A stretch of DNA of 64,000 nt from Cephalotus follicularis (taxonomy: Eukaryota; Streptophyta; Magnoliopsida; Oxalidales; Cephalotaceae): contig BDDD01002260.1 of the NCBI GenBank assembly GCA_001972305.1, positions 220,263 to 284,262 on the forward strand. The letters run 5' to 3'. This document shows positions 1,081 through 53,897 of this stretch, in pieces; positions within the stretch are counted from its first letter, which is position 1; every line of letters starts with the position of its first letter. The position numbers and the translations under genes are program-made. Under the pieces are notes generated by a model. That model was not told the origin of the DNA and searched no databases. It worked only from the letters and a program-made list of their open reading frames with translations.

Positions 1081-3251
1081 TGTTAGATATAGTGACCCGA
1101 CAAGCCATTAGATGGGTTGTCATATTTTATCTTACCATGTATGGAACAATCTTATTCTTATATATATATGATGCGTGCTAAATTTGTTATGGCTATATCA
1201 CTTGTATTTTATCACATAATTGAAGTAGTTTATTAATTACCTACTTATACTAGTGATGTACCGACATAAGGTTGGATGCCTGGCATGGAGGCTGTGACAC
1301 TGGTTACCTTACCCCTTATGTCAAACTTGTTTCAACTCATAGGTTCACTTTGTGGGCATTAGTGAACCGGATAGACTTGCGCGTATGTTGTCTGCCCATG
1401 GAATCGGGGGATGGATTCTCTCACTACCATCTATGTTGGACACTAGGGCAAATACGGGGTGCGCGCTGGGAGCGTGTACACTGAACATGACCCGCGTAGG
1501 AGACACCATTTGGATAGTCGCTATTCTCGTGTCAGTAGTGACTCCTACTTGTTGCGGTTGTGTATAAGTGATCATCACTTAGCGAGTTTTTTAACTCGTC
1601 TGATCCTTAGACCTGAGCGACTACTCTATATTGTATGGAGACGGTTATGCTTTGATCTCTACCTTACCCAGTCCTTACGCAGGGCTGACAATCGGGTGGT
1701 CTTTGGGTATGATCGAATCTATACGAATATAAGTGAGTGCGCAATAAGGGATTGTCACACCTGAGCGAAGGTGATCGGCTCTATTATGGTCTGATTATAC
1801 TTTGGATTTATGAAATCCTTGGCCAAGGTTGAGGTAGACTGGAAATTAGATTTTCGGAGAGTTTACCAAAGGTCCTAGTAATGATCAGATATTTTAGCCA
1901 TTGAGGTCCTATCTAGGGTTGACACATATCCTTACCCTAGACCTCAATCAGGACCAAACATGACAAGGGATTATAGTACACGCGAACCGACAACTTAGAA
2001 AATCTAGTGTTATTGAAGTGTGTAATAAATTGTGGGAAAATTAATTAGATTAATTTTTCCATCTGGATAATATTAGATATTAGTCCGAGAGCATTTAAAT
2101 TGGTCGAGGACCATTTAGAATGGCTAAACCGAACCGTAGGGGTATTTCGGTAATTTGAGTACACCTCTCGTCTTAACCAAGATTTTAAAGGGTTCCTGCC
2201 TTATAATGTTTAGATCTTTAATATGTTGGACATATTAAGTCTTGGTGTCAGATATCGGTTGTGTGGATTTTGCATTTCGTGGAAACACGTATGCTTGATC
2301 TTACTTAACAAATATTTGAAAGTTATATGAGATCACTAAAAGAGTTAGACTCTTTATGCTTGACTGGTCAGAAGGCGTCGATGTCTTTTAGAAATACGTG
2401 GATGCTTTTCTCTGATAAAGATATCGATGTCTTTTAGAAAACATCGATGTGCTTTAGTGCCACGTTGCATAGGCGTCGACGTCCTTTGGAAGGCGTCGAC
2501 GTCTTTAAGCAGAACGTGCAACCTGTGCACGAGCTCAAATCGTGGGCACTACTTCTCTCACATCCTTAGCCGATTCCTCTTGTTTTTACACAATTTAGAA
2601 ACGTGAGAATCATGGCTTTGAACTCCTAGGGAGTGAAGGACATGATTCTAAGTGAATGGTAGATTGGGAGAGAGAAATAAAGGCTAGTTAAAAGCATTTC
2701 TGCAGAAAAATGGAAGTGTGGAAAAAGTTTGAGTTTTTGCTGGGCAATTGAGAGCTCGAATTCCTCTGTAGATTGTGAGTGATACTTCATCTGGTATACA
2801 CCAAGCAAAGGCTTATCTAGGGTGGATTGATTGTTGACTTCATTGGTCAAAATCAATACACATTTTCTAAGCTAAGTGAGAGAGAGTGTGAGTTCATACA
2901 CTTTGTAATTGCTGGTTGGATTACTTGTTGTTCCTGAGGCTTGGAGAACATCAAAGGGAATCTACTCAAGCTTGTACCGGCAAAGAAAGAAGGAGCCTTC
3001 ACCCACTGGTATAATCTTTGGCCCCTTTTCTTCTTGCCATGCTTGTGTGTCACCATTGTTTCCAATGGTGACACCAATTCAATTTTGTAGATGTTGTGGT
3101 GATCCGTGTGATCTGTGGACGTGTCATTATGGACTAGTTATGTTATATAGGGTGTTATTCCACTGCCATGATAATTTGTTTAAGTTTTATTCTACACCCT
3201 TACACCCTTTGTCCATTTTGACATTGGTTTCGGTTTAGTCCGTTTCCATCA
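1081..3251 (+). mobile_element. Solo LTR (Copia-like), TSD catat
   Basis: This 2171-bp unit begins TGTTAGATATAG and ends TTTCCATCA, the canonical TG...CA limits. It is flanked by a perfect 5-bp duplication, catat (1076-1080 and 3252-3256). No primer site, coding domain or second LTR is present, so it looks like a solo LTR. Its first half can be followed alongside the solo LTR at 18573-20308 (shared TGTTAGA start, the 'aaccggatagac' region, 'tgtatggag'), so both belong to one superfamily. A GTCGAC-motif cluster lies at 2374-2505. The Copia label is a guess from LTR style. A compact non-autonomous element is the alternative. Confidence 0.7.
2374..2505. repeat. GCGTCGAC motif cluster in the solo LTR
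   Basis: Five copies of (a)GGCGTCGA(C/T)GTC or atatcgatgtc occur in about 130 bp. They are spaced irregularly and partly decayed by C-to-T and G-to-A changes at the CG positions. Confidence 0.7.
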
Positions 3252-4150
3252 CATATATCATGAGACAGAACATTTCGTAAATAACTGAGGGGTCATAAAA
3301 ACATAAAACAGACCCAATTGAACCAGTCACCGGGGCATGGTGCACATCCCTGATCACCAACCTACATCACATGCATGCCCGTGAGCACTCTCCGCTTATA
3401 ACATTAATCTTTTACGAGATTAATTCTTCCTGGATCGCAATCCAGTAGTTGTTCATCTCAGTTCATTGCATTATCTCATTCTGTAAATACATTTCTTAAT
3501 ACTTTGAGTGATCAGCTCAAAACATTAATAAAACAATTTTGTAAAACATTTGAAAACATTTTGAAAAAAAAAACATTTTGAAAACATTTGGAAAACATTT
3601 TGAAAACAATTTTATTAAAACATTTTAAAAACTGATTTTAAAACATTTTTGCAAAACATTTTGAAAACATTTGTAAAACTGAATTTAAAACATTTTTGTA
3701 AAATAATAATAACTATAATTTTCCAGAAAATACTTTAAAATAAGTAAGTATAAAATACTTAGGTAAAAATATAGAATTTTCGTAAAATACTTTGGTATAA
3801 AAATAGCATTTTTCCTTACCACCATAAAATACTTTAGAAAGGTGATTAGGAATCCTTACCTTAATTTATTCTCCTTCTTTCCTCCTTTATACCCATGTCA
3901 GCAGAACTCGCCTTCTTTATACTAAAATTCTCCTACTTTTTCTCTTCTCCTCTCTTTTCTCTCATTCTTTCTCTCCTTCTTCTTTCTCTCTTTCTCTCCC
4001 TCTCTTCTTCTTTCTCTCCCTTCCTGCCAAATACACTGATAAGGGAGCAGCATTTATAGGGAGTCTTCAGCTGCCTTCATTTTGTCGTTTCTCCATCAAG
4101 TCAACACGTGTCCTCTTCTTTCGTCCATTTCTTGATAGGCGTCCTTTTTC

Positions 4151-4430
4151 TTTAAGCGTCGGAGGTTAAGCTTTAAGCGTCGCCGCTTAAGCTCCAGAGT
4201 GCTACCGCTTTGTCCTCTAAGCGTTGCCTGTTGACGCGTAACAAAGGAAAATTAACGCTTGAAAGCGTCTCCGCTTTCTCCATTACACTATAACAAATTG
4301 TTGACGCTTTAACTCACAAATTCGGTACCCACAAAAGAAGCCAAACTGTCATCGCTTTAAAATAACTGTCGACGCTTTATGGCATTTCACTAAACTGTCG
4401 ATGCTTTAAAATAGGCAGTTGACGCTTTCA
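4151..4430. repeat. GCGTCG(A/C)C motif cluster in the minus-strand LTR
   Basis: Forms such as aagcgtcgccgctt, gttgacgcttt, gtcgacgcttt and gtcgatgcttt recur about ten times in 280 bp. They are variants of the palindrome AAGCGTCGACGCTT that also occurs in unrelated LTRs of this window. Confidence 0.7.
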
Positions 4431-6237: not shown

Positions 6238-6484
6238 CCAGTCGGCTGTGTCTCTTGACAGTCGGCTGTTTTCCTTCAACAATCGGCTATCCTAATTCTG
6301 GCAGTCGGCTGCTGGCGTACAGCAGTCGGCTACTCAAGCCTCTGCAGGCATTTCTCAGTAACACACATGGACAGTCGATTGGCTCCCAAGCACAGTTGGC
6401 TGGATCCATTGAGTAGTCGGCTATTCATACTGAACAGTCGACTGGCGCACTCGAGCAGTCGACTGTCCTCCTGGACAGTCAGCT
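6238..6484. repeat. CAGTCGGCTG / CAGTCGACTG motif cluster
   Basis: About nine copies of (c)agtcg(g/a)ctg occur at roughly 20-30 bp spacing, with decayed forms such as aatcggcta and agttggctg. The same motif fills 44006-44168 and 52816-52888 in a different Gypsy element. Confidence 0.8.
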
Positions 6485-6566
6485 GGATTCTGCAGACAGT
6501 ATAGAAAAACAGCAGCAAAACAAAGCCACAACTCACAACGATCCATTCTAACACACAACGAATCAT

Positions 6567-6672
6567 AGCGTCGACGTTATCTCTAAGCGTCGACATTTAT
6601 CGTGAACCAGGACTCATTCTCCGTATAACAATCTATAGCATCAACGCTTCTTTCCTAAGCGTCGACGGTTAA
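6567..6672. repeat. GCGTCGAC motif cluster beside the CAGTCGACTG cluster
   Basis: agcgtcgacgt, aagcgtcgaca, gcatcaacgctt and aagcgtcgacggtt occur within about 105 bp of the 5107-8093 solo LTR, immediately next to the previous cluster. Confidence 0.7.
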
Positions 6673-7388
6673 GCGAACCAAAACATGGTTCCTTCGACAC
6701 GTCTCAAAACCGATCGAGTTCAAGGCATACAACACATGCAATCCGATCTACAATCATCGCAAAACACAATATGCATAGCGGGTTAACTATTCATAGCAAC
6801 CCTAACACAGTCACACAATTCATAATCCACAGCCCACAATCATTCCAAGACATGATATGCACGAATATCATCAAGGAACATTTATTATAATTGAACTCAA
6901 ATCAAATTTATAAAATCCCCTACCTGTTACAGCAGTAGCAACCGAACAGTCTAGCTGCACGTTCAATTGCCAAACCTTTTCGATAACCGTTGAACCGAAG
7001 CCGGTTCTTGTCGATTAATCAGTTCCTAAATGCCAAATCCAATGGCCACTCACACACTACACATACAACACATTTCCGTTATGTTCGACACACAAAACAT
7101 TTTCGTCACCGAAACGCCGGTCGGATTCCGACCGACACAACCAGGCGGTGAAACACCCATCAACGGGTTCCACATTGAACGGTCTACTCAAAACTGGTCA
7201 AGACTCATCGGGAATCGGCGCCAAACGACGCGCCATGGCCGGCAGCGAGTCGTGACTCACTGAGTCAACTCTCCAGACCTCCACATGTCCGATCGCCACC
7301 CAAAAATGCCACACTTTCACCAGTCCTACACGTCCCTGCCCGTGACTCGCCAAGACTCGGCGCTAAACGTGCGGTCCAAGGCGGCAGT

Positions 7389-7413
7389 GAGTCGACTCGC
7401 TGAGTCGACTCAG
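7389..7413. repeat. GAGTCGACTC double palindrome
   Basis: GAGTCGACTC at 7389-7398 is followed by the perfect 14-bp palindrome CTGAGTCGACTCAG at 7400-7413. Decayed relatives (gagtcaactg, gagttgactc) occur at about 49588-49615 and 49838-49868 in the related LTR. Confidence 0.8.
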
Positions 7414-9912
7414 TTAACTGATTCCGGCCGTTTTTGGCTGAATCACTCCTCACCAGTGGTCGAAATGGGTAGAGCGGGCCTTCTACACCATAACCCACGC
7501 CATCCGCGATGCTAATGGGACCGGGAAACGCCGGGAAGAGGCGCGACAGTGGCGGCAGAGGAGAAGAAAAAGAAGAGAAGGGGGAAGGGGGAAGGAGGAG
7601 TTACTGTCCGTTGGCATGCCTGGGTTGACCGGCGTGCTCTCCCGGTCCGGTGGCTGGCTCCGGCTCGCTCTCTCTCCCTCTGCTCCAATCTCTCTCCCGC
7701 TCTCTCTCGCTCTCTCTCTGGCGCGGGCGCACAGAGCGCCCGCTGCCTCTCTCTTGCACGGGCGCGTGATGCGCCCGTGTCCCTCTCTCCCTTCCTTTAT
7801 TCTTTTGCTTCCCCCTTAGTATTTTCTTGTAAAATACTAAGATCGGGGTCTCGATTTTTCCGCGAATCGTGAGATAAATTATCCGAACAGCCACCAAAAT
7901 AATCGCAATAAAAATACGAATATTTGGGCTTTATTGTCGCGCATTAAAAATAGGCTTTATTAGCCGTTTTGGCTAACACAATTACGACTTAAATGCGTAA
8001 TGCCTTTTTATTACTCCGGGCCTCTATCGATTTTATTACGATTGTACACGCACCAATTTCATAATAATTATTTATGAAATTCGGGGCATTACAATTTCGA
8101 AAGTGTGTTAATTGAAGTTTAAACGGTGTTTTTAACTAATATACTTCTGCCGCTGATGACCGTTTTGATTGGTTATAGTTTTCTGACATCTGCACGTATT
8201 TCATTGCATAACGCATTTCACGTCTTAGTACGTGTTTGAGTCTGATAGTCTATTGTCTGTTTGTCTGTCTGTCTGTTGGCAGAGGATCCTACTGTTGAGG
8301 TCGGCCAGGGAGGCGACCATTCATGTGGCTTGTTTCGTCTGTATTGTGAGTGTAACGCCTTTCTTTAACCCTTTTTACTCTGAAATGCTTTTAGATGTTT
8401 TGAATGTTTAAGCATTTCGCTTAATTATTTATGTATATGAGTGAACTTGGTTTTTGCTCACTTCTAAAATCTGTCAAACTTTTAATGTCTGAAACTTTCT
8501 TTTAATATTTTCAAATGCTTGCATGATTATAGTCATACTATGATGCTATTTTCAGCTATATCTGTACATGATAAGGAAGATGATTCCTCTGTCTATTTAA
8601 ACGTGTTTTAAATCTATTTTGATGACTCTAATGATTATATATCTGTCTGAAATCTGTTTTAAGTCTGTTTTGAAGAATTGTGATTTTCTGAATCTCCTGA
8701 ATCTGTTATTTATGTTTAGATGCTTGGTGATCTCGGTCCAAGTTACCTAGTAAACCCATTGCATATTTATATATTTTTATCTGTTTAAACTCTGTTATTA
8801 TTATATATATATGAAATTCTAATGATTTGAATCTGGTTTTCTAATCTGGTTTTCTGCTGATTTCTGAAAATACTGGTTTATAAATAGGTTTTGATTTTAT
8901 ATTCTGTTTAAACCGTTTTATATATGTTTTATAAATCAGATTCTGTATTTTGATTCTGATTCTGAAACTCTGTTTCAGTTGTTTTACTTTGTTGTTATAT
9001 CTTTTCTGTAAAAGATATTTTATTGCGAGCAAAAGCTCTTTGGAGTCTATTTGTTCCATCTCACTAGTCCTGTGGACTAATCCCCTCCTTTGTTTTCTGT
9101 TTTTAGTTTTAACAGGTTAGTCTACTGAGCTCTGTCAGCTAGAGTCAGTCTGTCAACACATGCATATCATTCATGATATTAGCATTTAAATTATACATCA
9201 CTTATGTTTTTATGCAAATGTTTTAGTTTCATTTTAAAAGGGCTGAGCCCTGTTTCTGGTTTATGTTTTGATAATGTGGTTGAGACAGAGCCCAATCTAT
9301 ACTTGTTTTCTACTTTTAAATTGTGATTTGTTGAGGGCTGAGCCCATTACAAACTGGTTCCTCATTCGGGAGTGTGGATTTTATAAAACTGTGTTTTTCT
9401 TTACATGGGGCATAGTCCTATAAACGAATACTACATGCCCGATTTTCGTAAAATTTTAAGAGTTAGAATTATTTTCAAGTTTTTCAAAAAACTTTTCTGT
9501 TTTGAAGAAATTTCTCTGCTTTAAAAACGTATTTTTTAAAGTTCTGTTCTACTGAACCTACGAGGTGAGTCTTTGACTCGTAGTGGGCGAGACGGATCCC
9601 AGCGAGCTGGGTCCGGGCGTGTCATATTTGTGTTCCCCCGCTCGTATAAATTAGTACCGTGCATGTAGATATGTCTGTCAACATAAGGAAATGCAAAAAA
9701 AAAAAAAAAACATGCCACATCCTCAGTATTTTTCTTTAATGGAGTAAAGAACTATTTTGAGATTACGTCTCGGTCTCACATATGGAAATGTGAGATTTTC
9801 ACACTTCAAAAAAATAAATTTTCGATTTTGTCGAATGTGAAAAAAATTCAAACATGAAACCTTATTTTTTGAGATCTCAAGTTTTACGGAACCACTTCTA
9901 TATTTAACTGTC

Positions 9913-13970: not shown

Positions 13971-14872
13971 AGTACAATACATTTACTAACAGTACATTAC
14001 ACTACATTCATTATGTTGACATTTATAACATTTCATTATTTATTATAGGGTCTGCCAACATTAACACATTAAACCATATTTAAGTCATTATACATTTTAT
14101 TGTTATAATCCTTGCTTTTTATTCCCATTTACTAACCCATGAAGTATATTGTCCAAGGCCTAAAATCCCACTAACTCATTTAGAGTCCAAGCAGAGGAAG
14201 GCCCAACTCTGCCAAGCCCAACGTTTAAAGGATGGCACTGGCGCCCAAAATTGACAACATCTTCTCTCTCTCTCTCATTTTGCCTGCATGCATACTCCCA
14301 GACCTTCACACGTTGGCGCCAGACTTGTCCTCTGCAGTTGTACATCTCGGTCAGCATTATACAAATAGCGTGCTTGGCGCCAATAACACAAACGTCCAGT
14401 TTCATGCACAATGTACACGTAGGCAGCGCTGGTGCGTCTTCAACCTTGCTTCCTCATGAGGGAAGAGTCCAGGCGTCCAGTGGATGGCCCAGGTGCGTGA
14501 CGCTATGGCTATTAAACATCTTGTATGGCTGAGAGGAGCACACAAAGGATAGTTGGCACCATCGTATGCTCACCCTCCCCTTCTCGGACGCGAAGCAGAG
14601 AACGTCGCGCATGGCAGAGGAGCGCTTAGTGCCTCAGCATGCACAGGACGCATGCGTAGAGGATACCTGGTGCCCTGTCAGGCATGCGCTGCAGTCACGG
14701 GATACTGCTCGGCATCCCAGCGCATGCTCGGTACTGGTATGACGTGCTCGAGCACCCCCTGTCACCAAAGCACTAAAACAGAGGACGAGCTCGCTAGCAT
14801 TGGCGCTACCTGGCAGAGGAGGAGCTCGGCAATGCACATGGCAGGGGACAAGCTCGGAGTGCGCATGGCAGA

Positions 14873-15046
14873 GGACGATGGTGTCCCCCACGCTTGTTCC
14901 TCTGGCGAGCTCGACAGTGCGTGTGGCAGGGGATGATGGTGTCTCCCACGCTTGGTCCTCGGGCGAGCTCGACAGTGCGTGTGGCAGAGGATGATGGTGT
15001 CTCCCACGCTTGGTCCTCGGGCGAGCTCGACAGTGCGTGTGGCAGA
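14873..15046. repeat. Tandem repeat, 58-bp unit, three copies
   Basis: Units start at 14873, 14931 and 14989 with ggatgatggtgtctcccacg and run through gagctcgacagtgcgtgtgg. Copies 2 and 3 are nearly identical. Fragments of the unit extend upstream to about 14780. Confidence 0.9.
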
Positions 15047-16129
15047 GGATGGCTCTTCACACAGGTGTGTCCTCGGCGTATAATTTGGGATGCATGATAC
15101 GGTGGCATCGTCGGCGCCATGGCAGTAGAGAGCCATGGATGACAGTGGCATCTCGGACCCCTGGCAGTGACCGGTGGATAGCTCGGCGCCCTGGTATGTT
15201 TGGGTCCTCGGATATTGGCTCCTCGGACGCATGGCCACCTCAGCTCATGGGTGCATGCTTGAGTTGCATGCTCACGTTATACCGAGGACGCATTACTCGT
15301 GTAAAGGCCACCAGATCACAATGCTCGGTTCATTCCTTAGCATACTCATCATGTATGGTGCTATCAACATGCTTAGCCCATGGGAGGTAAGGGTTCACTC
15401 CCAAGATGTGTTCATACTCGGTTTCTAATGACAGTGTACTTAGTCGCATAAATACTTATTTCATTTAAGCAGTGTATACAATTCTAATACTCATCAATTA
15501 TGGAGGGTCATTAAATCCGTCTTAGTCCTCTGCCTTTATACATTTATCTATCACTGACTAGCAATCACACTATAGCAATTATAGCTAATACACATAAAGT
15601 AGAGCACTGAGTAGGAGTAGATCCTACCTGGACGTCCTCGGTAGTCTGATCATGCCTTCATTTTGCCTTGCTCATCAGTTTTAAATGCTCCTTTGTCTCT
15701 AGAAAGCTCCTTTCTCCCCTTGCTTCTTCTTCTTGCTCCTTGGTAAAGCTTTCCTTGTCTCATTCTTTTTCTCCATGACAACAGCAGCCGTATGCACACA
15801 TCTCCCTTCCTTTATATAGCCAACTCAAGGAAGGTTCTAGCATTTTTGAGACAATTCCAACCTATTCCTTCACATAGTGGGCTAAGGACTAAAGAAATAG
15901 GCCAAATTCTCTCTTCTCTCCAATTTGACCCAAATTTCTCCTTCTTAATCCACTACCTTTCAAGCCCAAAGACCATTTGGTACATTTCCAAGGCCCAAAC
16001 AACAATCAAAACCCACATAGCAATAATAAATATTTCAAGCCCAATTCTTTATTAATTCAATTTCTACCCCAATACATTTTGGGCCCAATTTTCACTATTT
16101 AATTATTTATAAAAATTTCGGGTATTACA

Positions 16130-16586: not shown

Positions 16587-18122
16587 CACTACTGGAAAAA
16601 CAACGTTTTGAGACAAAAAATCCATCCCAAAATTCAATTTGAGACGAAATTTTCGTCTCCAAACTTGGCGTCGCAAAGCAAATTTGAGACAGAATTTTCA
16701 TTTATGTCTCAAATTTGTGACAAACAAATTCCATCTCAATATTTTTTGAGATGGAAATTAAAGTTTGTCACGACCCGAACCCTGAGGAAGACCCCGGAGC
16801 CCGATACGTGGCAGGTCCGTCCATACGATACATCCTAGACGTAGCATAATACCCCCAAATACGCTATAATTTAAAATTTTAATACATAATCATGTATGTG
16901 GAAACAACTGCTCAAAACATGCATAGATGAACCCAACATAATCCGTAATACAACATTCATAACTTAAGCAATGTCACAAGCATGCAGGTCAACACAACTG
17001 AATACAATATGTTCTTATACAACAAGTCTCTTATACAATAAGGTAGATAGAGGAAACTGCACTGCAGCTAGACATCCTACTCTGCAAGCCATCACGTTTC
17101 ACATCAAGGCGTCCCCAGCACTCGTCCCTAAAATGTTGTGTCCATTTCGAGAATGGGTCAGCCAAACACGGCTATGCAGGTAATACTATATGCAATGAAG
17201 TGAACAGATATATATACAAGTATATGCATGGCATGTGAAATACATGAATGTCAATTGTGGACAACGCTAGTATATCAACCGTCCCTAAACGGTGGTATAC
17301 TTAATGAGTCCTAATCATATAAAAGTCCCTAGGTCTACAGACACTCCATAATTCAATTCATAACCATCCATGGGTACAAATAATCCATAAGGTCTGAGTA
17401 CCATTCTGCCCCCCCCCAGGCCCGAGATAGTACTGCCACTGACTACCTACCCTTTCGGGGTCATAGCCTAATGGGTCGAAATAACATTGACCACATCATT
17501 CATACGATAAAACTTGTTCACAATGGTCCCAGCCAACGATACGATAGGGCTTATTCACAATGGTCCCAGCCCATGATACGATATTCTTATTGGTCTGCCC
17601 ACAATGCGGTGGTCCTCGTAGGTCCACCCCCAAAGTGGGGTTCCGTAACCCCCATATGATATGGTCTAACACCCATAATATTCATGACGGAAATGAAGAT
17701 TATAAATGAGTTATCTCATCAGGTCTCCAATAATAGCAACCATCAATCGTACCATGCAAATCCCGTAACCCATAACCATATAACCATTTAAAGGATAGGG
17801 ACCTAACCATAAAGGATCACATACGATCTATCCGTCAAAACCATTTCCATAACCATTTCTTGGTCCCTATCGTAGTTTGTAAGACAATAAAGAGGAAGCC
17901 CAACTAGGATATTCGCGTTCAAACATCCTAATCGAACTAACCTAACAATTTATTGAAAACCTCTTTGAATTTGAAGATTGATTTGAAGACCATTTGTTTT
18001 AAAGAAGGGTTCGCATAGGCTACACTGCTTTAGGGAGGCTTCCTATGGAACCCGTTTGAAGGTAAAAGGATTTGGGGTTGAAAAGGGGTGAAAATAGTGT
18101 AATTTGGCTAAAAATAGGGCTC

Positions 18123-18435: not shown

Positions 18436-18572
18436 CAGACAGTTCGTCGACGGTTCAAAAAATTGATTCAAAACAAGTTTAAATATATTTAAATCGTTTA
18501 AAACTCGATCCAAAGGAAGCAAGAAGCCCCCTATGGTCAATTACAACTTTAAACACCTTTAAAACACCATTA

Positions 18573-24858: not shown

Positions 24859-27275
24859 TGTCACACCCCGAACCCTAAGGAGGACCCCAGGGCCCGACAC
24901 ATGGCATGTCTGTCTATACGATCCATCATATACGTAGCATCATACCCCCAAACACGCTGTAATTTAAAACTTTAATACATAATCATGCATACGAAAACAA
25001 CTGCTCGAAACTTGCGTAGATGAATCCAACATAATCCGTAATACAAGATACATAACTTAAGCACTGCCACAAGCCAGTAGGTCAACACAACTGAATACAA
25101 TATATTCTTATACAACAAGGTAGATAAAGGAAACTGCACTGCAACTAGACATCCTGCTTTGCAAGCCATCATGTCTCACGTCGAGGCGTCCCCAACACTC
25201 GTCCCTAAAATGTTGTGCCAATTTCGAGAATGGGTCAGCCAAACATGGCTATGCAGGTAATACTATATGCAATGAAGTGAACAGATATACATACAGGTAT
25301 ATGCATGGCATGTGAAATGCATGAATGCCAATTGTGGACAACGTTAGTATATCAACCGTCCATAAACGGTGGTATACTTAACGAGTCCTAATCACATAAA
25401 AGACCCTAGGTCTACAGACACTCTATAATTCAATCCATAACCATCCATGGGTACAAGACATCCATAAGGTCTGAGTACTACATTGTCCCTTCGACCCGAG
25501 ATAGTACTGCCACTGACTACCTACCCTTTCGGGATCGTAGCCAAGTGTGGTTGAGATAACACTGGCCACATCATCCATACGATAAGGCTTGTTCAAAATG
25601 GTCTCAGCTAACTATATGATAGGGCTTGTTCACAATGGTCCCAGCCTATTATACGATATTCTCATTGGTCCACACACAATGCAATGGTCCCCATATGTCC
25701 ACCCCCAAAGTGGGGTTCCGTAACCCCCATATGATGTGGTCTAACACCCATAATCTTCATGATGGAAATGAAGATTATAAATGGGTTATCTCATCAGGTC
25801 TCAAACAATAGCAACCATCAATCGTACCATGCAAAGCTTGTAACCCATAATCATATAACCATTTAAAGGATAGAGACCTAACCATAAAGGATCACATGTG
25901 ATCCATCAGTCAAAACCATTTCAAAACCATTTCCATTGCCATTTCCATAACCATTTTTCATAACCATTTCTTGGTCCCTATCGAAGTTTTTAAATCAATG
26001 GAGAGGAAGCCCAACTAGGATATTTGCGTCCAAACATCCTATCGAACTAACCAAACCATTTATTGAAAACCTCTTTGAAAATCCCTTTTTGAAGATTGAT
26101 TTGAAGACCATTTGTCTTAAAGAAGGGTTCACATAGCCTACACGGCCTTAGGGAGACTTCCTATGGAACCCATTTGAAGGTAAAAGGATTTGGGGTTGAA
26201 AAAGGGTGATATAGTGTAATTTGGCTAAAAACAGGGCGCTAAGCGCCAACTGCCTCATCCAAAGCGTCGACAGTTAGCGTCCAAAGCGTCGCCGATTTCG
26301 TGCAAAGTGTCGACGGTTAAGGCGTTAAGAGTTGACGATTACACTAGGCGTTGACTGTTTCCTAATTTATAAAGCGTCAACAATTGCGCCAGGCATCAAC
26401 CTTATCCCTTAAGCAAGGCATCGACGGTTTCGTGCAAGACGTCGATAGTGAAGGATCGAATCCAAAAGTGTCGACAAATTGCATGAAAGCGTCGACTGAT
26501 CACCCGCCAAGCGTCGACGCTTTTGATCAAAGCATCGACGGTCATGCGGTAGCAGACAGTTCGTCGATAGTTCAAAAAATTGATTCAAAACCAGTTTAAA
26601 TCCATTTAAATTGTTTAAAACTCAATCCAAAGGAAGCTAGAAGCCCCCTATGGTTGATTACAACTTTAAACACCTTTAAAACACCACTATCCATGCACGT
26701 AACCCATAATTGAGAGAGAGAAGAGACTAGGCTTATAAACCTATAACTCTCAATTCTCTCTCTGATTTCCATTTAAAGCCACAATCAATCATAGCAATCA
26801 CCCTAACTCATCCATCTAATCTATATACATTCATCTATAACCATAAAAGTATACGATTCAATCAATATACATGGATTCAAAGCATACATGAACCTACCTC
26901 AATTTCCTTGAGAATGAAGAACAAGTTGATTGGCTGCTTGAATCCTTGTTCTGCTTCTTCCTTCAAGTTCTACACTCTGCCACGAACCCAAGGACTCATT
27001 TCTTGCTCAATTCCGCCCACTCTCTCTCTAACTCACACTCTCTTTAGAATAGGAGACAAGAAATGAAAACGAGAATATAAATAGTTAACTCGTCTATATA
27101 TAGATTTCTTTAGACGAAAATCTCAAAAACTACGCTTTGGTTCGATTGAACCCCCATAACCTATAAACAAACATAAAAATAAAAAATACTATATACTACA
27201 TACAATCCATGTCATCTATCAATACAATACCGTATAAATACAATCAAGTACGAAAATCTATCCTTGAGGCTTACA
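24859..27275 (-). repeat. 5' LTR of the minus-strand Gypsy element
   Basis: A 2417-bp copy from TGTCACACCCCGAACCC to GAGGCTTACA, partner of 16766-20912. It holds the GTCGAC-motif array (26240-26575) and no ORF of interest. Confidence 0.9.
26240..26575. repeat. GCGTCGAC motif cluster in the 5' LTR
   Basis: Twelve or more copies. One is the perfect 14-bp palindrome AAGCGTCGACGCTT at 26509-26522. Comparison with the paired array at 18123-18435 shows mostly C/T and G/A differences at CG positions. Confidence 0.85.
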
Positions 27276-36434: not shown

Positions 36435-37463
36435 TGTTGACTTTTAGTCTCAATCCTAAGTTTTAATGATTACAAATTTGCATTTAACTTTGCTGCTTTC
36501 TGTGCAAGAAAAGAAATAAGCAAAACAAAGAAGTACAGAAACAGGGCAAAGCGTCGACTCTTTGATCAAAGCGTCTACTCTTAGAGGTACAAAGCGTCTA
36601 CCGTTTGTTGCAGAGAACAAAATGGCAATTACAAGACTGACTAAGCGTCGACTCTTAAGGCTAAGCGTCGACTCTTTAACTGGCAGTCGACTCCAACATG
36701 TTGACGCCTACGCTTTGAGCTGAGAATTCAAATTGAGATCCCCAACGGTCACATGACCGTCGACGCTTAAAGCTACTTCGTCGACGCTTTGGACGGCTGG
36801 AACAATGATAGAACTTGTTTTAAAGAGCCAACTTTTGTGCAACAACTTCCAACACTTCTCCAACGGCTCTATTTCTTCACCAACGGCTAGAAACTAAATG
36901 AAGCTATATATACAAGCCAAGAATGAAGATTTAAGGGACTTGAAAAATAGAGGAACAACACTTGAATATCCAATCTCAAAATCTCAACTTGCACATTTAC
37001 AAAGAGAAAGAACATCAAGCTTTTGCTTATCACTTTCATATCCAAAGCTTGTATCTAGATTACACTTTCACATCCAACCTTTAAGAGGTTATTGTAAACA
37101 CAAACCAAAACCATTTCTATCATTCATTGTAAAAGAGGGGAGTGAACCCTTGTAAGGTGTTTCATTGATTTGCACCCGGAACCCAAAATCAATTGTAAGG
37201 TGGTTTCTTTGATTTGCACCTGTAAGCCGAAAATTAAAGGTTGCTAGGGGATTCTAGTGGAAACTCAAGGGGCTCTTGAAAAAGTGGACGTAGACACGGA
37301 TTTGCCAAACCACTATAAATTTGTTTGCACACTCTCTAACTCTCTCTCTTTATTACTTGTGATTATTTTGATTGTTTGTTGTGTGCTTGTTTAGATTCAT
37401 TGTCTTAATTTGTTTTTTCCGCGTACAAAATCTTTAGTTAAAGATTGCCATACATTTCTTTCA
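36435..37463 (+). repeat. 5' LTR of the Copia element
   Basis: 1029 bp, TGTTGACTTTTAG to CATTTCTTTCA. It includes a GTCGAC-motif cluster (36549-36790). The ORF at about 36898-37155 is within the LTR and is not a gene. Confidence 0.9.
36549..36790. repeat. GCGTCGAC motif cluster in the Copia LTR
   Basis: About ten copies: aaagcgtcgactcttt, aagcgtctactctt, aagcgtcgactctt, cgtcgacgctt and others. Only the first one or two are found in the 3' LTR copy. Confidence 0.85.
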
Positions 37464-37480
37464 GTTGGTATCAGAGCGGG
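37464..37480 (+). promoter_or_regulatory. Primer binding site (initiator tRNA-Met) of the Copia element
   Basis: TGGTATCAGAGC lies at 37466-37477, directly after the 5' LTR. Confidence 0.92.
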
Positions 37481-37516
37481 TTTTTATCGGTAATCTTAAT
37501 TGAGATAAATTGATCC

Positions 37517-38530
37517 ATGGCAACCATTTCATGTTTTAATGATAATAAGTTTATTAGCATGCCACCATTTTTTGATGAAAATGATTATAGTCAATGGAAA
37601 ATTAAAATGTCCACCTTTATCCAATCCCTTGATTATGATCTTTGGGATATGATTGTTTTTGGTCTAGAATTGCCTAAAGAATATATCTCTAAACCAAGAA
37701 TTAGATACAATGAAAAGGAAAAAGATATGTTAAAACTAAATGCTAAGGCCAAACATATTATTTTTTGTGCTTTAAGTTCTAACGAATTTGATCGTATTTC
37801 TTCTTGTGAATCGGCAAAGGAGATATGGGATAAGTTGGAAGATCTTCATGAAGAAAGTGATGAAGAAGTCGTCAACCTTGCTCTCATGGCTATGGAAGAA
37901 GATACAAGTGGAGATGAAAGCGAAAGTGAGGTAAATTTTACTTTCGATGAATTACAAAATGCCTATGAGAAATTATATGTTGAATATGAAAATGTTTGTT
38001 TAAAGAACAAGACCCTAAAGAAAAATGCTATATCCATGTCTAAAGAAATTGATGATTTAAAGAATGAGAATAGCAAGTATTTAAATGAAATTGAATCTCT
38101 AAAGGATAAAAATAGTTTTTATATGAATGAGATTGAAATTTTAAATGTTTCTTCAAAATTGTCAATTGATTTTATGAAAGAAAATGAAAAGCTAAAAATT
38201 GAAATTGATGCTTTGAAAAAATCCTTTTCTATTTTTTCAAATAGTAGTGCTAAATTGGATAATCTATTAGGTTTACAAAGATGTGTGTTTGACAAAACCG
38301 GTCTTGGCTTTGAAGAGATGAAAAATGTCAAACACTTTAACAATTTCTTTGTCAAGAAAGTAGAACCTCAAATGTGTTGCAATTATTGTGGTAGAATAGG
38401 ACATATTTCTACCTCTTGCATGTTTAGAAATAATCTTTGCTATGAAAAAACTAGAAAGATTTGGGTTCCGAAAGGAACTCTTGTGACTAACTTGCAAGGA
38501 CCCAAGTTCAAATGGGTACCAAAAGCTTAA
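37517..38530 (+). CDS. Copia gag polyprotein (retrotransposon)
   Basis: A 337-residue ORF, open from ATG to stop. The N-terminal 110 residues ('PPFFDENDYSQWKIKMSTFI', 'AKEIWDKLEDLHE') match the Copia gag capsid region. An acidic linker follows, then a long coiled coil (about residues 145-235, rich in Lys, Glu, Asn and Leu). A CCHC zinc knuckle, 'CNYCGRIGHISTSC', lies at about 287-300, and a C-terminal 'WVPKGTLVTNLQGPKFKWVP' is characteristic of SIRE-type elements. No protease, integrase or reverse transcriptase follows, so the gene would depend on other elements. Retroelement gene, not a host gene. Confidence 0.88.
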   Translation: MATISCFNDNKFISMPPFFDENDYSQWKIKMSTFIQSLDYDLWDMIVFGLELPKEYISKPRIRYNEKEKDMLKLNAKAKHIIFCALSSNEFDRISSCESAKEIWDKLEDLHEESDEEVVNLALMAMEEDTSGDESESEVNFTFDELQNAYEKLYVEYENVCLKNKTLKKNAISMSKEIDDLKNENSKYLNEIESLKDKNSFYMNEIEILNVSSKLSIDFMKENEKLKIEIDALKKSFSIFSNSSAKLDNLLGLQRCVFDKTGLGFEEMKNVKHFNNFFVKKVEPQMCCNYCGRIGHISTSCMFRNNLCYEKTRKIWVPKGTLVTNLQGPKFKWVPKA

Positions 38531-39042
38531 TTTTTGTCTTGTAGGTGTACTTGGAGTTACATTTCAAGATGTTCAAAGTACACAAATATGGGAAAAAGCT
38601 TTTGTTGAGGGGGAGGTATTAATATAATAATAATATTGCTTCTTTCAATCTTTTTTTATTTAGTATCATTTTTTATCCAACAATTGGTATATCTCAAATT
38701 TATTTTGGTATTTTAACTTTAAAAGGATTTTATTTAAATAGGTTAACTTTTTGATATAAACTTTTTGATGCTAACAAAAAGGGGGAGAATGCTTTATGAT
38801 TAAGAAAAAAATTGATAGCATATGCTTAGAGGGAGTTAGAAATGAAAATGTGCTTTTAAATGATGAATATATTCAGGGGGAGTTTTTGTATGTCATATTA
38901 AGGGAGAGTTTATATAGATTTTTTTTAAATTGGTATCTAAAGAAAAATTCTTGTTATCTTCAATTGGTATATAGACTTTTCTACTGGCATAAATTTCTTC
39001 CTAAATGTAGCAAATTTTTGTAATCGTCAAAAATGGGGAGAT

Positions 39043-39489
39043 TGTTGACTTTTAGTCTCAATCCTAAGTTTTAATGATTACAAATTTAAATTTAACTTTG
39101 CTGCTTTCTGTGCAAGAAAAGAAATAAGCAAAACAAAGAAGTACAGAAACAGGGCAAAGCGTCGACTCTTTGATCAAAGCGTCTATTTCATTGATTTGCA
39201 CCCGGAACCCAAAATCAATTGTAAGGTGGTTTCTTTGATTTGCACCCGTAAGCCGAAAATCAAAGGTTGCTAGGGGATTCTAGTGGAAACTCAAGGGGCT
39301 CTTGAGAAAGTGGACGTAGGCACGGATTTTCCGAACCACTATAAATTTGTTTGCACACTATCTAACTCTCTCTCTTTATTACTTGTGATTATTTTGATTG
39401 TTTGTTGTGTGCTTATTTAGATTCATTGTCTTAATTTGTTTTTTCCGCGTACAAAATCTTTAGTTAAAGGTTGCCATACATTTCTTTCA
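39043..39489 (+). repeat. 3' LTR of the Copia element
   Basis: 447 bp, same start and end as the 5' LTR but shorter. It is preceded by the purine tract aaaatggggagat at 39030-39042. Confidence 0.9.
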
Positions 39490-41036
39490 GTTTTTATGTC
39501 AGATCGACAAAAGGTATGAAAATGAATTTATACTTCAATCATTTCTTATTACTTTGTTTCATTATTGTAATTAAATATATAAATATGTTGAGTTTATAAG
39601 TATATGCTATTTAAATATGTTGAGACTTTTGTAATCGCTTATTTGTTGCATTTTGTAGGGACTGCTTGAGGCAGTAGCCGAAATTTTTCCTTGGTCAAGG
39701 CACAGATTCTGTGTCAGACACATATATGCAAACTGGAGGCAAGCTAATCCAGGAGTTGAGTTGAGGATTGCTTTTTGGAGAGCAGCAAGAGCCTAGAATA
39801 ATTTAACTTGGAAATCTGCCATGGATACAATGCAGAGGCATAGTAAGGGTGGGTGGGAGAAACTAATGAAGCTATCTCTACATCTGTGGGCTAGGCATGC
39901 ATTTGATGCATCTTGTAAGTCTGATGCATGGACTAATAACTTGTCTGAGTCATGGAACCATTGGATAGGAAAGTTGAGGGATAAAAACATTATTAAGGTG
40001 CTTGAGGGTGTTAGGATGCCGATGATGACAATGATGTGTAAAAGGCATGGGAAAGCATGTCAGCATATGAAGAACAGAGTTAGGAAGATAAGTCCTCATG
40101 CTAGAGCAAGGTTGGACAAAATCATTGAAGATTCAAATGATTCCAGACTATTACCTGCAAGCTTTGTTGAGTTCCAGGTTATGGAGCATGGTCACAAGTT
40201 TGTAGTTAATTTGAAGAGGAAGAGTTGTAGCTGCATTGAATGGAACCTTACTGGTTTTCCATGTAGGCATGTAGTTCCAGCACTGGCTCATACAAGGGAA
40301 GACATTGAAGATTATTGTGATGCTTATTACAGTGTAAGAACATACTTTGCCTGTTACAATGAGGTCATTCACCCAATCCCCGATGCTGATTTAGCACCTG
40401 ATAGTACATTAGAGAATATTCAGCCTCCTCCGTTGAAAAGGCTGCAAGGAAGACCAAGAATAACAAGGAGAAGAGCGGCAGGGGAACCTGGACCAAAGAA
40501 AAGGTCCTATTCAGTGAGATGCTCCAACTGTAGGGAGATTGGTCACAATGCCAAAAGTTGTCGAAGAGCTCCAGTTGCAAAAAAAGTGAGTATATAAATT
40601 CTGATTCATTAATTAAATTAGTTTGATTGTGAACTGACCAATGAATTAAATTTTGCAGATTAAATTACCTCCTGGCAGGCCTAGAAAGGTTACAAATGAT
40701 GGGCTTGGGCATGGCAAAGGCCAAGGAACAAGCATGGGCAGTGGGCAAGGAGCAAACATGGGTAAAGGCAATGAGACCAGCAAGGGTAGAGGCAATGGGG
40801 GAAGGGGTCAACGAGCAATTACAAGTGGAAGGGGTCAAGAAATAATTACAAGTGAAAGGGGCCGAGGAGCAAGAAGTGGAAGGGGCCGAGGACTAGTTGT
40901 AACCCAAAACACTCACAATACTCAAGCAACTCCTACTCCTACAGTGATGACAGTGAAGTGGTATGGTGTAACACTTCCACCTGGGCAACTTGGGAACCAA
41001 CAAAGCAGTTGTGGGAAGCAGGAAAACCATAAATGA

Positions 41037-42876: not shown

Positions 42877-44080
42877 TGTAATACCCTGCTCGTTCGTAAA
42901 TATATTTTACGGATTTTATTTGTGTTTTTGGGCTTTTAATTTTGCTTAATTTTAAAGTCCGGTTGCCCTACGATTTGGGCTTATGTGAATTGTGCTGACT
43001 GATACCAGTCCGATATATTTTGGGTATGTTATGCTATGTTGGGTTTGAATTTTATTTACCTTATTATAATCCAAAATTATTTATTAAAAACAATTTATTT
43101 ACCTTTTATTTTAAAATTTCTTAATTCTTTTTATTTCTTTTTTTTCCTATTTTATCAATTTCTCCTACTTCCTCCCACCTTCCTCCTTCTTTCCAGCAAA
43201 TCCCACCATCATTCACATGCTAAAGTCTCTCTTTTCCCATTTCAAAATCCAAAAAAGTCCCCTTTCTTCCCCCTTTTGTCAAATCATGTCTCCTCCTTTC
43301 TCCTTTATTGTGTGCCATTGCCATTTTATATGATACCACCATCTTTCTTGCAAGCCATTGTCAAATCTGCATTGTGGGTGTGTGTCAAGCTGCTGTGTAT
43401 TTGTTTCATCAAATTCGTAGAGGTAATCTTAATCCTTTTTGTGTTATTTTGAGTTGAATTTGTTTAGTTTGCTAAGTTCCTCCTTGTTTTTGGTTTTCTT
43501 TTGGTTTTGGTCTCTTTGCCTCTGTTTTTGTTCACAGCAGATTGTATGTTTGTGCTTGTGTTCCTCCTGCTAGTTTCTGTGTCCTTAACATCATTACATG
43601 TCAGTAAATTCATTCCCTTTAATTATATTTTTGTTTCAATGGCATACTTTGAGTTTTTATGCTCTTGGAGTCTTTGAGTCATTGATTCTTGTCTAAACAT
43701 GTTGTCATTGTGTTAGTGATATTGCAAACACGTTTTATACTCATATATGTGTCACAAACTTGTTTTATAACATCTGTAATCAATTAGAGACAGAATTTGG
43801 AGATATGCATCCATTTCCTTCTTACTTTCTTTTATAAGTTAAATCACTATCAAGCTATTTCCTTGTCAAATTTGTGTTTGTATGTCACCTACAAGTCATA
43901 TATGATCATTTGTTTATGTCCATATGTCTCTAGTTTAATGTAGAAACCATTTGAACCATTTTCAGTAGCAAATCGTCGGATTTCCAACTGTTCTGTCGCC
44001 CAGAACAGTCGGCTGTCTCTGTGGACAGTCGGCTGGAATGGTTGTGTAGTCGATTGGAGGGATGAACACAGTCGACTGCC
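42877..44080 (+). repeat. 5' LTR-matching segment of the Gypsy element
   Basis: Nearly identical to 51669-52890 of the 3' LTR. Beyond 44080 the sequence leads to gag rather than following the rest of the 3' LTR. The ORF at 43036-43452 is part of the LTR, also present at 51828-52262, and is not a gene. Confidence 0.88.
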
Positions 44081-44168
44081 TGCATTTTGGGTTGTGTAGT
44101 CGACTGGACCATATGAACAGTCGACTGCCAAGCCTCCCCAGTCGACTGGAGCCCTGTTTTAGTCGACT
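44006..44168. repeat. CAGTCGACTG / CAGTCGGCTG motif cluster
   Basis: About eight copies in 160 bp, including the perfect palindrome CAGTCGACTG at 44069-44078. The first few are also in the 3' LTR (52816-52888). Confidence 0.88.
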
Positions 44169-44171
44169 ATT

Positions 44172-45125: not shown

Positions 45126-45128
45126 GAT

Positions 45129-49089: not shown

Positions 49090-50456
49090 TGTGACACCCC
49101 GTGTCACGTTTTAGTTGTGAGCGTGCAAACACGTGAGTGTAATATTAGTATTATTATATGTTAATATTATAATTGTAAAAAAAAAAAAATTAGTAAATAG
49201 GGAAGGCACCCGACGTTTCTGGAAGAAACGCCAGGTGCCTTATCAAAATACAAATGGACGGGCGCATAGCGCCCGTGCTAATGAAAGAGACAGAGAGAGG
49301 CGCAGAGAGATCGGGAGAGAGACGACCAGAGAGACGACGGCGCAAGGCGCCTCACCTGGAGGAGCAGCGCAGGTCCTCATCGTCGACGGTAAGCCTTCCC
49401 TCTCCCTCCTTTCTTCTTCTTTCCTTCTTTTCTCCCCATGCCCGATGGCCACTGTCGGTGCGCGTTCGCCGCCGTCCACCACTTTTGGCGTCGCGGATGG
49501 GTGCGGTCATGGTCTAGAAGACCACCTCTTCCCATTTCGACGGCTGTTGTGGCGTGATTCGGCCTGAAACGGCCGGATTTTAGCGGTTGAGTCAACTGAG
49601 CGAGTTGACTCACTGCCGCCTCTGCCGCCGCTTTTGGCGCCGATTCCCGGCGAGTCTCAGCCACCAATGAGTAGACCGGAGCTTGTGGATGCCAGGGGTG
49701 GTGAGACCGGAGCAATGGCGTCTCGGCCGGAGCTCTGGCGCGGCGGCAGGCGCCGATTCTAGGCGAGTTACGGGCGGAGACGCGTAGTACAGGCCTCGTG
49801 GACACTTTTTTGTGAAGCGGCCTAAATTGTTGGATGATCGGCGAGTTGACTCAGTGAGTCAACTCACTGTTGGCGGTGGCTGCTCGTTTCCGGGCGAGCC
49901 ACCGTGACTTTCGATCAATAATGTGAGTTGATCAATTGTTTTAGGGGTTGTTATAGGTGTCGTCGGAACTTTGGCAGGTTGATCAGAAATTGGCCAAAGC
50001 TTTGGTGACTCACAGTGTTAAATGCGTATATGTAGAAAGTAACGGATATGTGTTGTTTATGCAAAGTGAAGGATAATAGAGTTACGAAACGATGACGAGA
50101 ACCCGATGGTCGATTCAAAGCTTCAAGGGGTTAGTTCGTGGAAGTATCAGCTCTGATATTGTGAGTAGAACATCTCCTTCCTTATTTTATCTTAGTTGTT
50201 GTTGATATTCCTTATGATGGATATTGCCTCTATTGTGATCTTTAAATGGCATAGCTTGTCGATTCTGAATTGTTGATATCCTAAGCTTGTTGATATTCTG
50301 TTTGTTGACTTCTATGGCTTGTGATATGCTGATTCCATAATTGCTCTTGGAATCCCTTATTGATAACTTAATTTGAATCGATTTCCGAATCGTTTGCTTG
50401 AAACCTTTATTGGTATTTCGATTGAATGTTCATATTGATATGACTTGTTGATAGTA
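49090..50456 (+). repeat. Partial LTR of a second Gypsy family
   Basis: Starts TGTGACACCCCG directly after a purine tract and carries the gggcgc...gcgccc hairpin (about 49259-49278), a GA-rich tract and gagt(c/t)(a/g)actc palindromes. These are the same family features as the minus-strand solo LTR at 5107-8093. It stops where integrase of the host element resumes. Confidence 0.7.
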
Positions 50457-50457
50457 T

Positions 50458-51614: not shown

Positions 51615-51656
51615 GGTATGTTTTTGTTTGTGATTTCAGGACGAAATCTTCTTTTT

Positions 51657-51668
51657 AGGGGGGGTGGA
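51657..51668 (+). promoter_or_regulatory. Purine tract of the Gypsy element
   Basis: agggggggtgga lies immediately before the 3' LTR start TGTAATACCC, the expected plus-strand priming site. Confidence 0.88.
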
Positions 51669-53897
51669 TGTAATACCCTGCTCGTTCGTAAATATATTTT
51701 ACGGATTTTATTTGTGTTTTCGGGCTTTTAATTTTGTTTAATTTTAAAGTCCGGTTGCCCTACGATTTGGGCTTATGTGAATTGTGCTGACTGATACCAG
51801 TCCGATATATTTTGGGTATGTTATGCTATGTTGGGTTTGAATTTTATTTACTTTATTATAATCCAAAATTATTTATTAAAAACAATTTATTTACCTTTTA
51901 TTTTAAAATTTCTTAATTCTTTTTATTTCTTAATTCTTTTTATTTCTTTTTTTTTCCTATTTTATCAATTTCTCCTACTTCCTCCCACCTTCCTCCTTCT
52001 TTCCAGCACATCCCACCATCATTCACATGCTAAAGTCTCACTTTTCCCATTTCAAAATCCAGAAAAGTCCCTTTTCTTCCCCCTTTTGTCAAATCATGTC
52101 TCCTCCTTTCTCCTTTATTGTGTGCCATTGCCATTTTATATGATACCACCATCTTTCTTGGAAGCCATTGTCAAATCTGCATTGTGGGCGTGTGTCAAGC
52201 TGCTGTGTATTTGTTTTATCAAATTCGTAGAGGTAATCTTAATCCTTTTTGTGTTATTTTGAGTTGAATTCGTTTAGTTTGCTAAGTTCCTCCTTGTTTT
52301 TGGTTTTCTTTTGGTTTTGGTCTCTTTGCCTCTGTTTTTGTTCACAACAGATTGTATGTTTGTGCTTGTGTTCCTCCTGCTAGTTTCTGTGTCCTTAACA
52401 TCATTACAGGTCAGTAAATTCATTCCCTTTAATTATATTTTTGTTTCAATGGCATACTTTGAGTTTTTATGCTCTTGGAGTCTTTGAGTCATTGATTCTT
52501 GTCTAAACATGTTGTCATTGTGTTATTGATATTGCAAACACGTTTTATACTCATATATGTGTCACAAACTTGTTTTATAACATCTGTAATCAATTAGAGA
52601 CAGAATTTGGACATATGCATCCATTTCCTTCTTACTTTCTTTTGTAAGTTAAATCACTATCAAGCTGTTTCCTTGTCAAATTTGTGTTTGTATGTCACCT
52701 ACAAGTCATATATGATCATTTGTTTATGTCCATATGTCTCTAGTTTAATGTAGAAACCATTTGAACCATTTTCAGTAGCAAATCGTCGGATTTCCAACTG
52801 TTCTGTCGCCTAGAACAGTCGGCTGTCTCTGTGGACAGTCGGCTGGAATGGTTGTGTAGTCGACTGGAGGGATGAACACAGTCGACTGCCTTACAATACG
52901 TTAAGACATGATATGTTATAATACGATATGTTATGATACAATTGTGAAAGGTTTCTGAATATGTTGAGAGAAAACATATGTCAAGTGATTTTAAGTTGAT
53001 TTTGATAAATCAATTATTTTAAATTAAATACTGAGTATTGTACCCACCTATGGGGCGTATCCATAGGCACGTCGTGGGCCTGGCACCAGAACGTGACACT
53101 TCCGTAGCGGTGTGATTAGACTACGGCATCTCTGAGTGTATGAACAAATCCCATGAGGTGGATTTGTGGATCCGCTATGTGTGATAGAGGCGTATGAATC
53201 GATTCTAGTTTATGTGATCTGAGGTGAATTCAGATATGTGGTCCGAGGTGTGATCGGATATGTGTATGTGAGAATTGACTTGTGTAGTGCCGTACACTTC
53301 AATTCTAGTGGGCATGTGGAATTAGCGCCTCCCATGCCAAAATTTATGATATGTGATATGAATACGGCTCAGTATGTTTTATGAACTATGATTTATAACA
53401 TTCCGTAATTGTTTCGAAAAATATGCAATTGTCATTTGAATATGATTAAACTGTTTTATTTGTTAAAGATTTCTGTTACGTTATTATTGAAATATTAACG
53501 TTTTTAAATTACCGTTTACTGTTTTGTTTCCCTTATCCGTACTGAGGTTTGCTCAGCCGCGTTTTTGTTTCCATGCGGCAGGTTTTCAGGAGCAGCGGGG
53601 GAAAGTGTGATTGAGTGGTGACCACCCTATGTGTTGGATCCTTAGGAGAGTGATCCTTATGTTATGATTAGTGGTCTGAGATATGGATTTTTATGTTTTA
53701 TGTTTTAAATTGGAACTAATTTATGTTTTGAATTTTCCGCAACTACTTAATATGTTAAATGGTTAAGTTTTAATGTTTTGATAAGACTGCCACGTTTTCG
53801 ACTGTTATTGGCTAATAAAGCAAACTTATGATTTGTTAAGTTGAATTATGTTATGATATGACTCTGTGACGACTCCCGCCGTTCCGGGGGTGTTACA
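51669..53897 (+). repeat. 3' LTR of the Gypsy element
   Basis: 2229 bp, from TGTAATACCCTGCTCG to GGGGGTGTTACA. It contains a shortened CAGTCGACTG cluster (52816-52888) and the 'cctatggggcgtatccatagg' block typical of Tekay/Del LTRs. No gene inside. Confidence 0.92.

Follow-up and report, generated by a model that had tools for sequence, protein, structure and literature searches.

Binding sites for host factors in the long terminal repeats (LTRs) of retrotransposons are an already known phenomenon. Here we describe arrays of palindromes centred on GTCGAC in the LTRs of several retrotransposon families from a 64,000-bp stretch of contig BDDD01002260.1 of Cephalotus follicularis. This single window consists of plant-like, transposon-rich DNA, and all enrichment figures given below refer to it. 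Repeated protein-binding boxes are present in one plant Copia LTR, in the U3 of tobacco Tnt1, although these boxes belong to one family and differ in sequence from the arrays. The nearest analogue in logic is the VANC target arrays of the Arabidopsis VANDAL transposons (PMC5735166). VANC is encoded by the transposons themselves, and its motifs, YAGTATTAY and AGTTGT[CA]C, likewise occur as arrays; one of them is also found in the unrelated element AT9TSD1 (PMC5735166). However, these motifs differ from GTCGAC, the portion of that report drawn upon here mentions no dyad for VANC, and the present arrays lie in LTR retrotransposons.

Several catalogued plant motifs share parts of the sequence. GTCGAC itself is catalogued as the low-temperature element CRTDREHVCBF2 and RYCGAC as CBFHV (PMC6628100). 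GTCGAC is also listed as an AP2/ERF binding sequence (PMC8207140), and CCGAC is catalogued as a low-temperature core (PMC6628100, PMC8207140). The tomato LTR element Rider, which contains DRE-type and CBF sites, is responsive to drought but not to cold (PMC6762207). Arabidopsis REM proteins, together with GDE1, are reported to recruit Pol IV to short repeated motifs (PMC12270911). NLP proteins recognise the half-site TG(A/G)C(C/T)CTT and its reverse complement (PMC13170786, PMC9085827).

The window contains seven GTCGAC arrays (A, B, C1, C2, D, E and F) in six LTR families. A preliminary description of this DNA had listed nine clusters, and all nine were found where it placed them, as were the perfect palindromes it noted at 26509-26522 and 44069-44078. 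Self-comparison reduces the nine clusters to seven arrays because 18123/26240 and 44006/52816 are the LTR pairs of single elements. The places listed were thus right, but 18123-18435 and 26240-26575 are one array in two LTRs, and the same is true of 44006-44168 and 52816-52888. A common cause at the DNA level, in the form of putative binding sites, is well supported because the arrays combine a conserved core, mostly free linkers, a sharp logo with a symmetric consensus, a spacing of two helical turns and motif models that predict across families. Binding sites were among the options offered by the preliminary description, and the same features speak for that option. The arrays fall into two classes by their flanks. 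They are given below, with cores counted by a fixed rule that tolerates no more than one difference from GTCGAC and applies inside the already known clusters.

2374..2505, plus strand: array A, class 1, weak, three cores; in a solo LTR (1081-3251) with the 5-bp target duplication CATAT
4151..4430, minus strand: array B, class 1, six cores, mostly off the 21-bp spacing
6238..6485, minus strand: array C1, class 2, eight cores
6567..6672, minus strand: array C2, class 1, three cores; shares its LTR with C1
18123..18451, minus strand: array D, class 1, 13 cores; the element is of Gypsy type, and the array is in its 3' LTR
26240..26575, minus strand: array D again, in the 5' LTR of that element
36549..36790, plus strand: array E, class 1, nine cores; the element is of Copia type (36435-39489), and the array is in its 5' LTR
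39157..39184, plus strand: what is left of array E in that element's 3' LTR, which has an internal deletion
44006..44169, plus strand: array F, class 2; the element is of Gypsy type, and the array is located at the 3' end of its 5' LTR
52816..52888, plus strand: array F again, in the 3' LTR of that element, cut off at 52891

The LTR pairs were recognised by self-comparison. In element D (minus strand), 16766-18573 plus 20305-20864 pair with 24859-27237, and the LTR pieces are 87-92% identical. The LTRs of element F (42877-44081 and 51669-52891) are 97% identical. Pieces of 36434-37466 pair with 39042-39492 in element E, where the array at 36549-36790 recurs in truncated form at 39157. The LTR that contains array B lies on the minus strand, begins with TGTAATAACC near 4757 and is split by the solo LTR of array A; the limits of the B and C LTR regions were placed by eye. 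A Pfam scan of ten proteins identified Retrotrans_gag and RVT_1 in element F, an RNase H-like reverse-transcriptase domain in element D (minus strand) and a copia-type gag in element E. The domains of F and D are characteristic of the Gypsy type, and assignment to Copia or Gypsy covers elements D, E and F only. In element F the 5' copy of the array runs beyond the end of the LTR match at 44081 to 44169, the 3' copy stops inside the array at 52891, and no tRNA-primer site of the usual kind was seen downstream of the 5' LTR.

The preliminary description held that the LTRs do not otherwise align, and this is true of the six families once the arrays are masked. Among eight LTR regions (the six families, H, and G at 56814-57281) the sole match is that of A with H (62% over 172 bp, E 4e-6). 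H is a solo LTR at 18573-20308 with the target duplication CATTA, located within the left LTR of element D. A single LTR family behind all of the arrays was looked for, and the families proved unalignable outside the arrays. With the arrays left unmasked, B-D, C-F, C-D and D-E align too, by way of the arrays.

GTCGAC has 43 matches in the window, while 100 shuffles gave a mean of 4.81+-2.40 and a maximum of 15. It is the top 6-mer by order-4 Markov z (43 against 25.0 expected, z 3.6), and its observed/expected ratio of 8.8 is the highest among the 64 palindromic 6-mers. The seven non-redundant arrays hold 28 of the 43 copies and are 227-fold enriched in GTCGAC over the rest of the window. Ten more are in second LTR copies (26266-26513, 39161, 52859-52881) or in a pair at 7391/7404, and five are elsewhere (4854, 16553, 32008, 49382, 63693). 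Longer forms are also in excess: AAGCGTCGACGCTT with up to three mismatches has 36 matches against 1.06 expected, and CAGTCGACTG with up to two mismatches has 36 against 13.75.

The pair at 7391/7404 is of a third type, GAGT[C/T][G/A]ACTC, with its two cores 13 bp apart in LTR C (7389-7420). This type recurs with the CpG lost at 49591/49604 (49589-49610) and 49845/49858 (49843-49866), in a related LTR nested in element F. LTR C at 7344-7515 and the stretch 49656-49485 match at 78%. Both this pair and the second LTR copies were left out of the spacing, core-variant, linker, logo and folding counts.

Irregular spacing had been reported in the preliminary description. Instead, the cores have a period of about 21 bp, corresponding to two helical turns. 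By the fixed rule 22 pairs of cores are 20-22 bp apart, compared with 5.17+-2.05 by random placement in the same intervals (maximum 15 in 20,000), and no 3-bp bin between 10 and 70 bp reached 22 pairs in any simulation. Further peaks are found at 42-44 bp (13 pairs), 49-51 bp (nine) and 63-64 bp (seven), and spacings of 25-29 bp are also present. C1, D, E and F carry the phasing because they contribute 20 of the 22 pairs (A 1, B 1, C1 4, C2 0, D 7, E 3, F 6). When hand-added degenerate units are included, 32 of 53 successive spacings are 20-22 bp, with a median of 21 (C1 9/10, F 6/7). The phase holds between neighbouring cores, not across whole arrays. With second LTRs masked, GTCGAC has copies 19-23 bp apart at five separate loci, the most of any 6-mer, followed by GCGTCG with four, which is part of the same motif.

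Motif-word searches of the open-licence literature found no earlier report of such phased GTCGAC arrays in plant LTRs, and PMC11291829 yielded no motif. Viral contigs contain 118 stretches with three GTCGAC 20-22 bp apart, and in 114 of these the match falls within a run of 60 or more codons free of stops in one or another frame, which is consistent with coding repeats. No signs of plant LTRs were seen among the matches listed, and a search of the viral contigs with the reverse transcriptase of element F confirmed no relative.

The class 1 logo, from 41 units of A, B, C2, D and E, is WAAG[C/T]GTCGAC[G/A]NTTW. The class 2 logo, from 19 units of C1 and F, is [C/T]AGTCG[A/G]CT[G/A]. Little information remains outside +-8 to 9 for class 1 and outside +-5 to 6 for class 2. 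The spacing of about 21 bp is the same in both classes despite these different conserved widths, which argues that the spacing itself matters. Of the 60 units, 38, 25, 37, 32 and 30 have complementary bases at the mirror positions +-4 to +-8, where base composition predicts 15.8, and 16 do so at +-9.

Motif models per family had been proposed in the preliminary description, and they carry over between families: a model trained without a family still detects the array of that family. For class 1 the matches number three in 161 bp (A), nine in 301 bp (B), four in 141 bp (C2), 14 in 361 bp (D) and eight in 261 bp (E), with a background of 6-10 matches in the 61,810 bp outside the arrays. For class 2 there are 11 matches in 261 bp of C1 against 18 outside, and eight in 201 bp of F against 28 outside. 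The class 1 model exceeds its threshold six times outside the arrays, compared with 11-19 times in simulated windows, and the class 2 model 13 times, compared with 12-25.

To one explanation of these features we assign about an even chance. The arrays would be clustered double-stranded DNA sites with an enhancer role in the LTRs, each centred on GTCGAC and 10-16 bp long, that are recognised by the symmetric dimer of a protein which the host encodes. With neighbouring sites often about 21 bp apart, the dimers would be located on one face of the DNA and may cooperate. A sharp site of symmetric consensus, linkers free to vary and a two-turn spacing are the traces expected of a dimeric DNA-binding protein that contacts its neighbours. 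The protein would activate LTR transcription in some tissue or stress. Copia-type and Gypsy-type LTRs that share no other sequence would have gained or kept the arrays through such activation. Protein binding, the dimer state, host encoding and activation are what we infer from the DNA sequence; analysis of the elements' own coding capacity covered a list of open reading frames and the Pfam scan of ten proteins. The two flank classes may represent two related proteins or two modes of one.

A more specific version is possible but doubtful. In it, an undescribed dimeric host protein recognises GTCGAC dyads separated by two helical turns. Copia-type and Gypsy-type retrotransposons of this plant lineage would have converged independently on arrays of its sites, making one host factor a switch shared by many unrelated families. 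Strong evidence that unrelated retrotransposons converge on one host regulator would come from such an array in several families of both superfamilies. It would also offer a way into the question of what activates or silences the retrotransposons of this plant. The motif models allow the claim to be tested computationally on any sequenced relative.

A number of observations weigh against the enhancer explanation. Phasing is weak in A, B and C2, which provide two of the 22 pairs. The cluster intervals were known in advance, and the degenerate units used in the linker, logo, model and folding tests were picked by hand with a 21-bp lattice in mind. When right flanks are shuffled within arrays, 36.8, 24.7, 33.9, 31.1 and 23.3 units are complementary at +-4 to +-8, and within an individual unit the two flanks do not match each other better than this (p 0.13-0.72 at +-4 to 7 and 9; 0.025 at +-8). 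The symmetry thus belongs to the consensus and not to individual units. Selection after insertion would not be expected, and selection is not directly seen in the comparison of LTR copies: array D has 18 changes in 332 positions against 34 in 404 beside it, which is not clearly better kept, and array F has 2 in 92 against 17 in 1113 in its flanks, which is not better kept at all. Solo LTR H, the weak relative of A, has neither GTCGAC nor an array, and the full A-H alignment does not separate gain from loss of the array. Finally, in A, B, D, E and F Tandem Repeats Finder detects pieces of 2.1-3.5 units (period 20-22, 67-86% matches), and tandem duplication could set the spacing without function.

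An unlikely alternative takes the last point further. The arrays would be old tandem repeats moved between LTR families by ancient recombination, with a core kept by chance or past selection and a spacing that is simply the old unit. Besides the short pieces, the linkers provide some support. Within C1, D and E their similarity is 0.45-0.56 against 0.37-0.43 when shuffled, and the single pair in A is likewise raised. Mean similarity is also raised between families for B-C1, B-D, B-E, C1-D, C2-D and D-E (p 0.000-0.020, uncorrected, 21 comparisons), and the 10-base linker TTTGATCAAA is common to D and E, although much of it is motif edge. On the other side, the linkers of C1-F, D-F, E-F and every comparison with A are at the shuffled level, and class 1 linkers include motif edges, which inflate the similarity. 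A neutral relic should not retain its cores in 41 and 19 units while the linkers are at background.

The arrays are also not a simple tandem repeat or minisatellite, as the preliminary description had stated. Only short pieces are detected, nothing with a period near 21 is found by Tandem Repeats Finder in C1 or C2, and the linkers are near background with a modest excess in C1, D and E. Tandem duplication within arrays is nevertheless likely because of those alike linkers and the short pieces. Repeated exchange between families, another suggestion of the preliminary description, fares less well: the linkers give little sign of recent exchange, being mostly at the shuffled level with some exceptions. 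Convergence and old exchange both remain compatible with the data.

Core variants bear on which protein might be involved. The non-redundant arrays contain eight GCCGAC/GTCGGC (54-fold enriched over the rest of the window), three GTCGCC (30-fold) and four ATCGAC/GTCGAT (12-fold). Further variants are GTTGAC/GTCAAC (six, 6-fold), GTCTAC (two, 4-fold) and GTGGAC (one, 2-fold). The range of variants is selective, with no cores of the types CTCGAC, TTCGAC or GACGAC. The sites could be CRT/DRE elements bound by AP2/ERF monomers of the CBF/DREB class in cold- or drought-responsive LTRs. The palindrome would then be incidental because RYCGAC on either strand suffices. This has a small probability. 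GTCGAC is itself a catalogued CBF/DREB core, RYCGAC is matched on one strand, or nearly so, by three of the four most enriched core types (GTCGAC, GCCGAC/GTCGGC and ATCGAC/GTCGAT), GCCGAC/GTCGGC contains the canonical CCGAC, and Rider is a precedent for stress-type sites in an LTR (PMC6762207). Array cores agree with RYCGAC or CCGAC, with the exception of the GTCGCC and GTTGAC types, which are 30-fold and 6-fold enriched. In addition, the flanks are conserved and their consensus is symmetric in both classes, which a monomer site would not require, although single units are not individually mirrored. The catalogued elements and Rider resemble the arrays in the core and in the presence of stress-type sites in an LTR, but the available parts of these sources describe no array, phasing or conserved symmetric flank (PMC6628100, PMC8207140, PMC6762207).

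RWP-RK proteins (NLP or RKD) are a very improbable source of the sites. The class 1 half GACGCTT does resemble the NLP half TGRCYCTT, and array E contains GACTCTT halves. The nitrate-responsive element of NLP proteins is also a semi-palindromic plant site with a related half, GACYCTT, and overlapping double elements are reported (PMC13170786, PMC9085827). However, NLP sites have the arrangement TGRCYCTT-N10-AARRGGCA, which the arrays lack. Their halves abut as AAGYGTC-GACRNTT, without such a spacer, the fourth base is mostly G rather than C or T, and class 2 (AGTCGRCT) has no fit.

Observed/expected CpG is 0.70-1.91 in the arrays and 0.35-0.79 in the neighbouring stretch of the same LTR, a difference that is partly by construction. 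A host factor could recognise the GTCGAC arrays as a hallmark of retrotransposons and bring RNA-directed DNA methylation or repressors, although we regard this as rather improbable. CG-rich arrays in LTRs would suit methylation targets, and REM/GDE1 is a precedent (PMC12270911). The REM/GDE1/CLSY3 system resembles the proposed role of the arrays in that a short repeated motif brings a host complex to loci (PMC12270911, PMC8752594). Their motifs, as given in the parts of these sources used here, differ from the arrays in sequence, in their one-base spacing and in the absence of a dyad. REM/CLSY3 motif identity was rejected, since the array logos are unlike repeats of TTTTGCTTAT or AAGCGGAT spaced by one base (PMC12270911). 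Elements should also lose sites that silence them rather than bear arrays of such sites in several families, and activation is preferred over silencing for this reason.

Methylation had also been proposed in the preliminary description as a cause of the clusters and of their C/T differences. CG methylation alone accounts for neither GTCGAC, nor the flanks, nor the spacing. Decay of CG is visible between the LTR copies of element D, where CpG transitions are 8 of 18 substitutions in the array and 5 of 34 in the flanking sequence. However, the most enriched variant, GCCGAC/GTCGGC, is not derivable from GTCGAC by CpG decay.

RNA hairpins in the element transcript, with a role in dimerisation, packaging or translation, are highly improbable, although the preliminary description had listed them as an option. 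The array RNAs of D, E, F and C1 fold better than dinucleotide shuffles (z -4.92, -5.06, -6.60 and -2.68, respectively) because the units are palindromes. When the units are kept and only the linkers are shuffled, the excess disappears in five of the six arrays tested, from which C2 was omitted (z 0.01, -0.45, 0.40, -0.99 and -0.15 for B, C1, D, E and F). Array A is borderline (z -1.95, 7/150). A hairpin element was rejected, as folding in those five arrays does not go beyond what the palindromic units force. The window has no Rfam match at gathering score.

The position of the arrays also argues against hairpins. Array B is upstream of a CTATAAA box at 4059 and array E is upstream of a TATATAT box at 36905. 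Only in these two is the position relative to such boxes clear: A has weak TATA-like boxes on both sides, C has several, D has one upstream and one inside the array, and F has none. Pattern matches to a splice-donor-like GGTA[A/G] occur at 3862 (B), 6926 (C), 26900 (D) and 43419 (F), and the arrays in C, D and F are about 250-750 bp downstream of theirs. This variation in position between LTRs fits an enhancer better than a transcript feature. An intron-like layout is possibly common to the LTRs with GGTA[A/G].

Other features were found in the window. Copia-type element E has a gag but a short internal region and is flanked by the target duplication GTTTT. It is located between two parts of a Mutator-like transposase gene (35297-36016 and 39797-40594; DBD_Tnp_Mut, SWIM). 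An open frame at 31759-32493 with a MYND finger may be a piece of a host gene. At 14851-15051 Tandem Repeats Finder reports a tandem repeat with a 58-bp unit, 3.5 copies and 93% matches.

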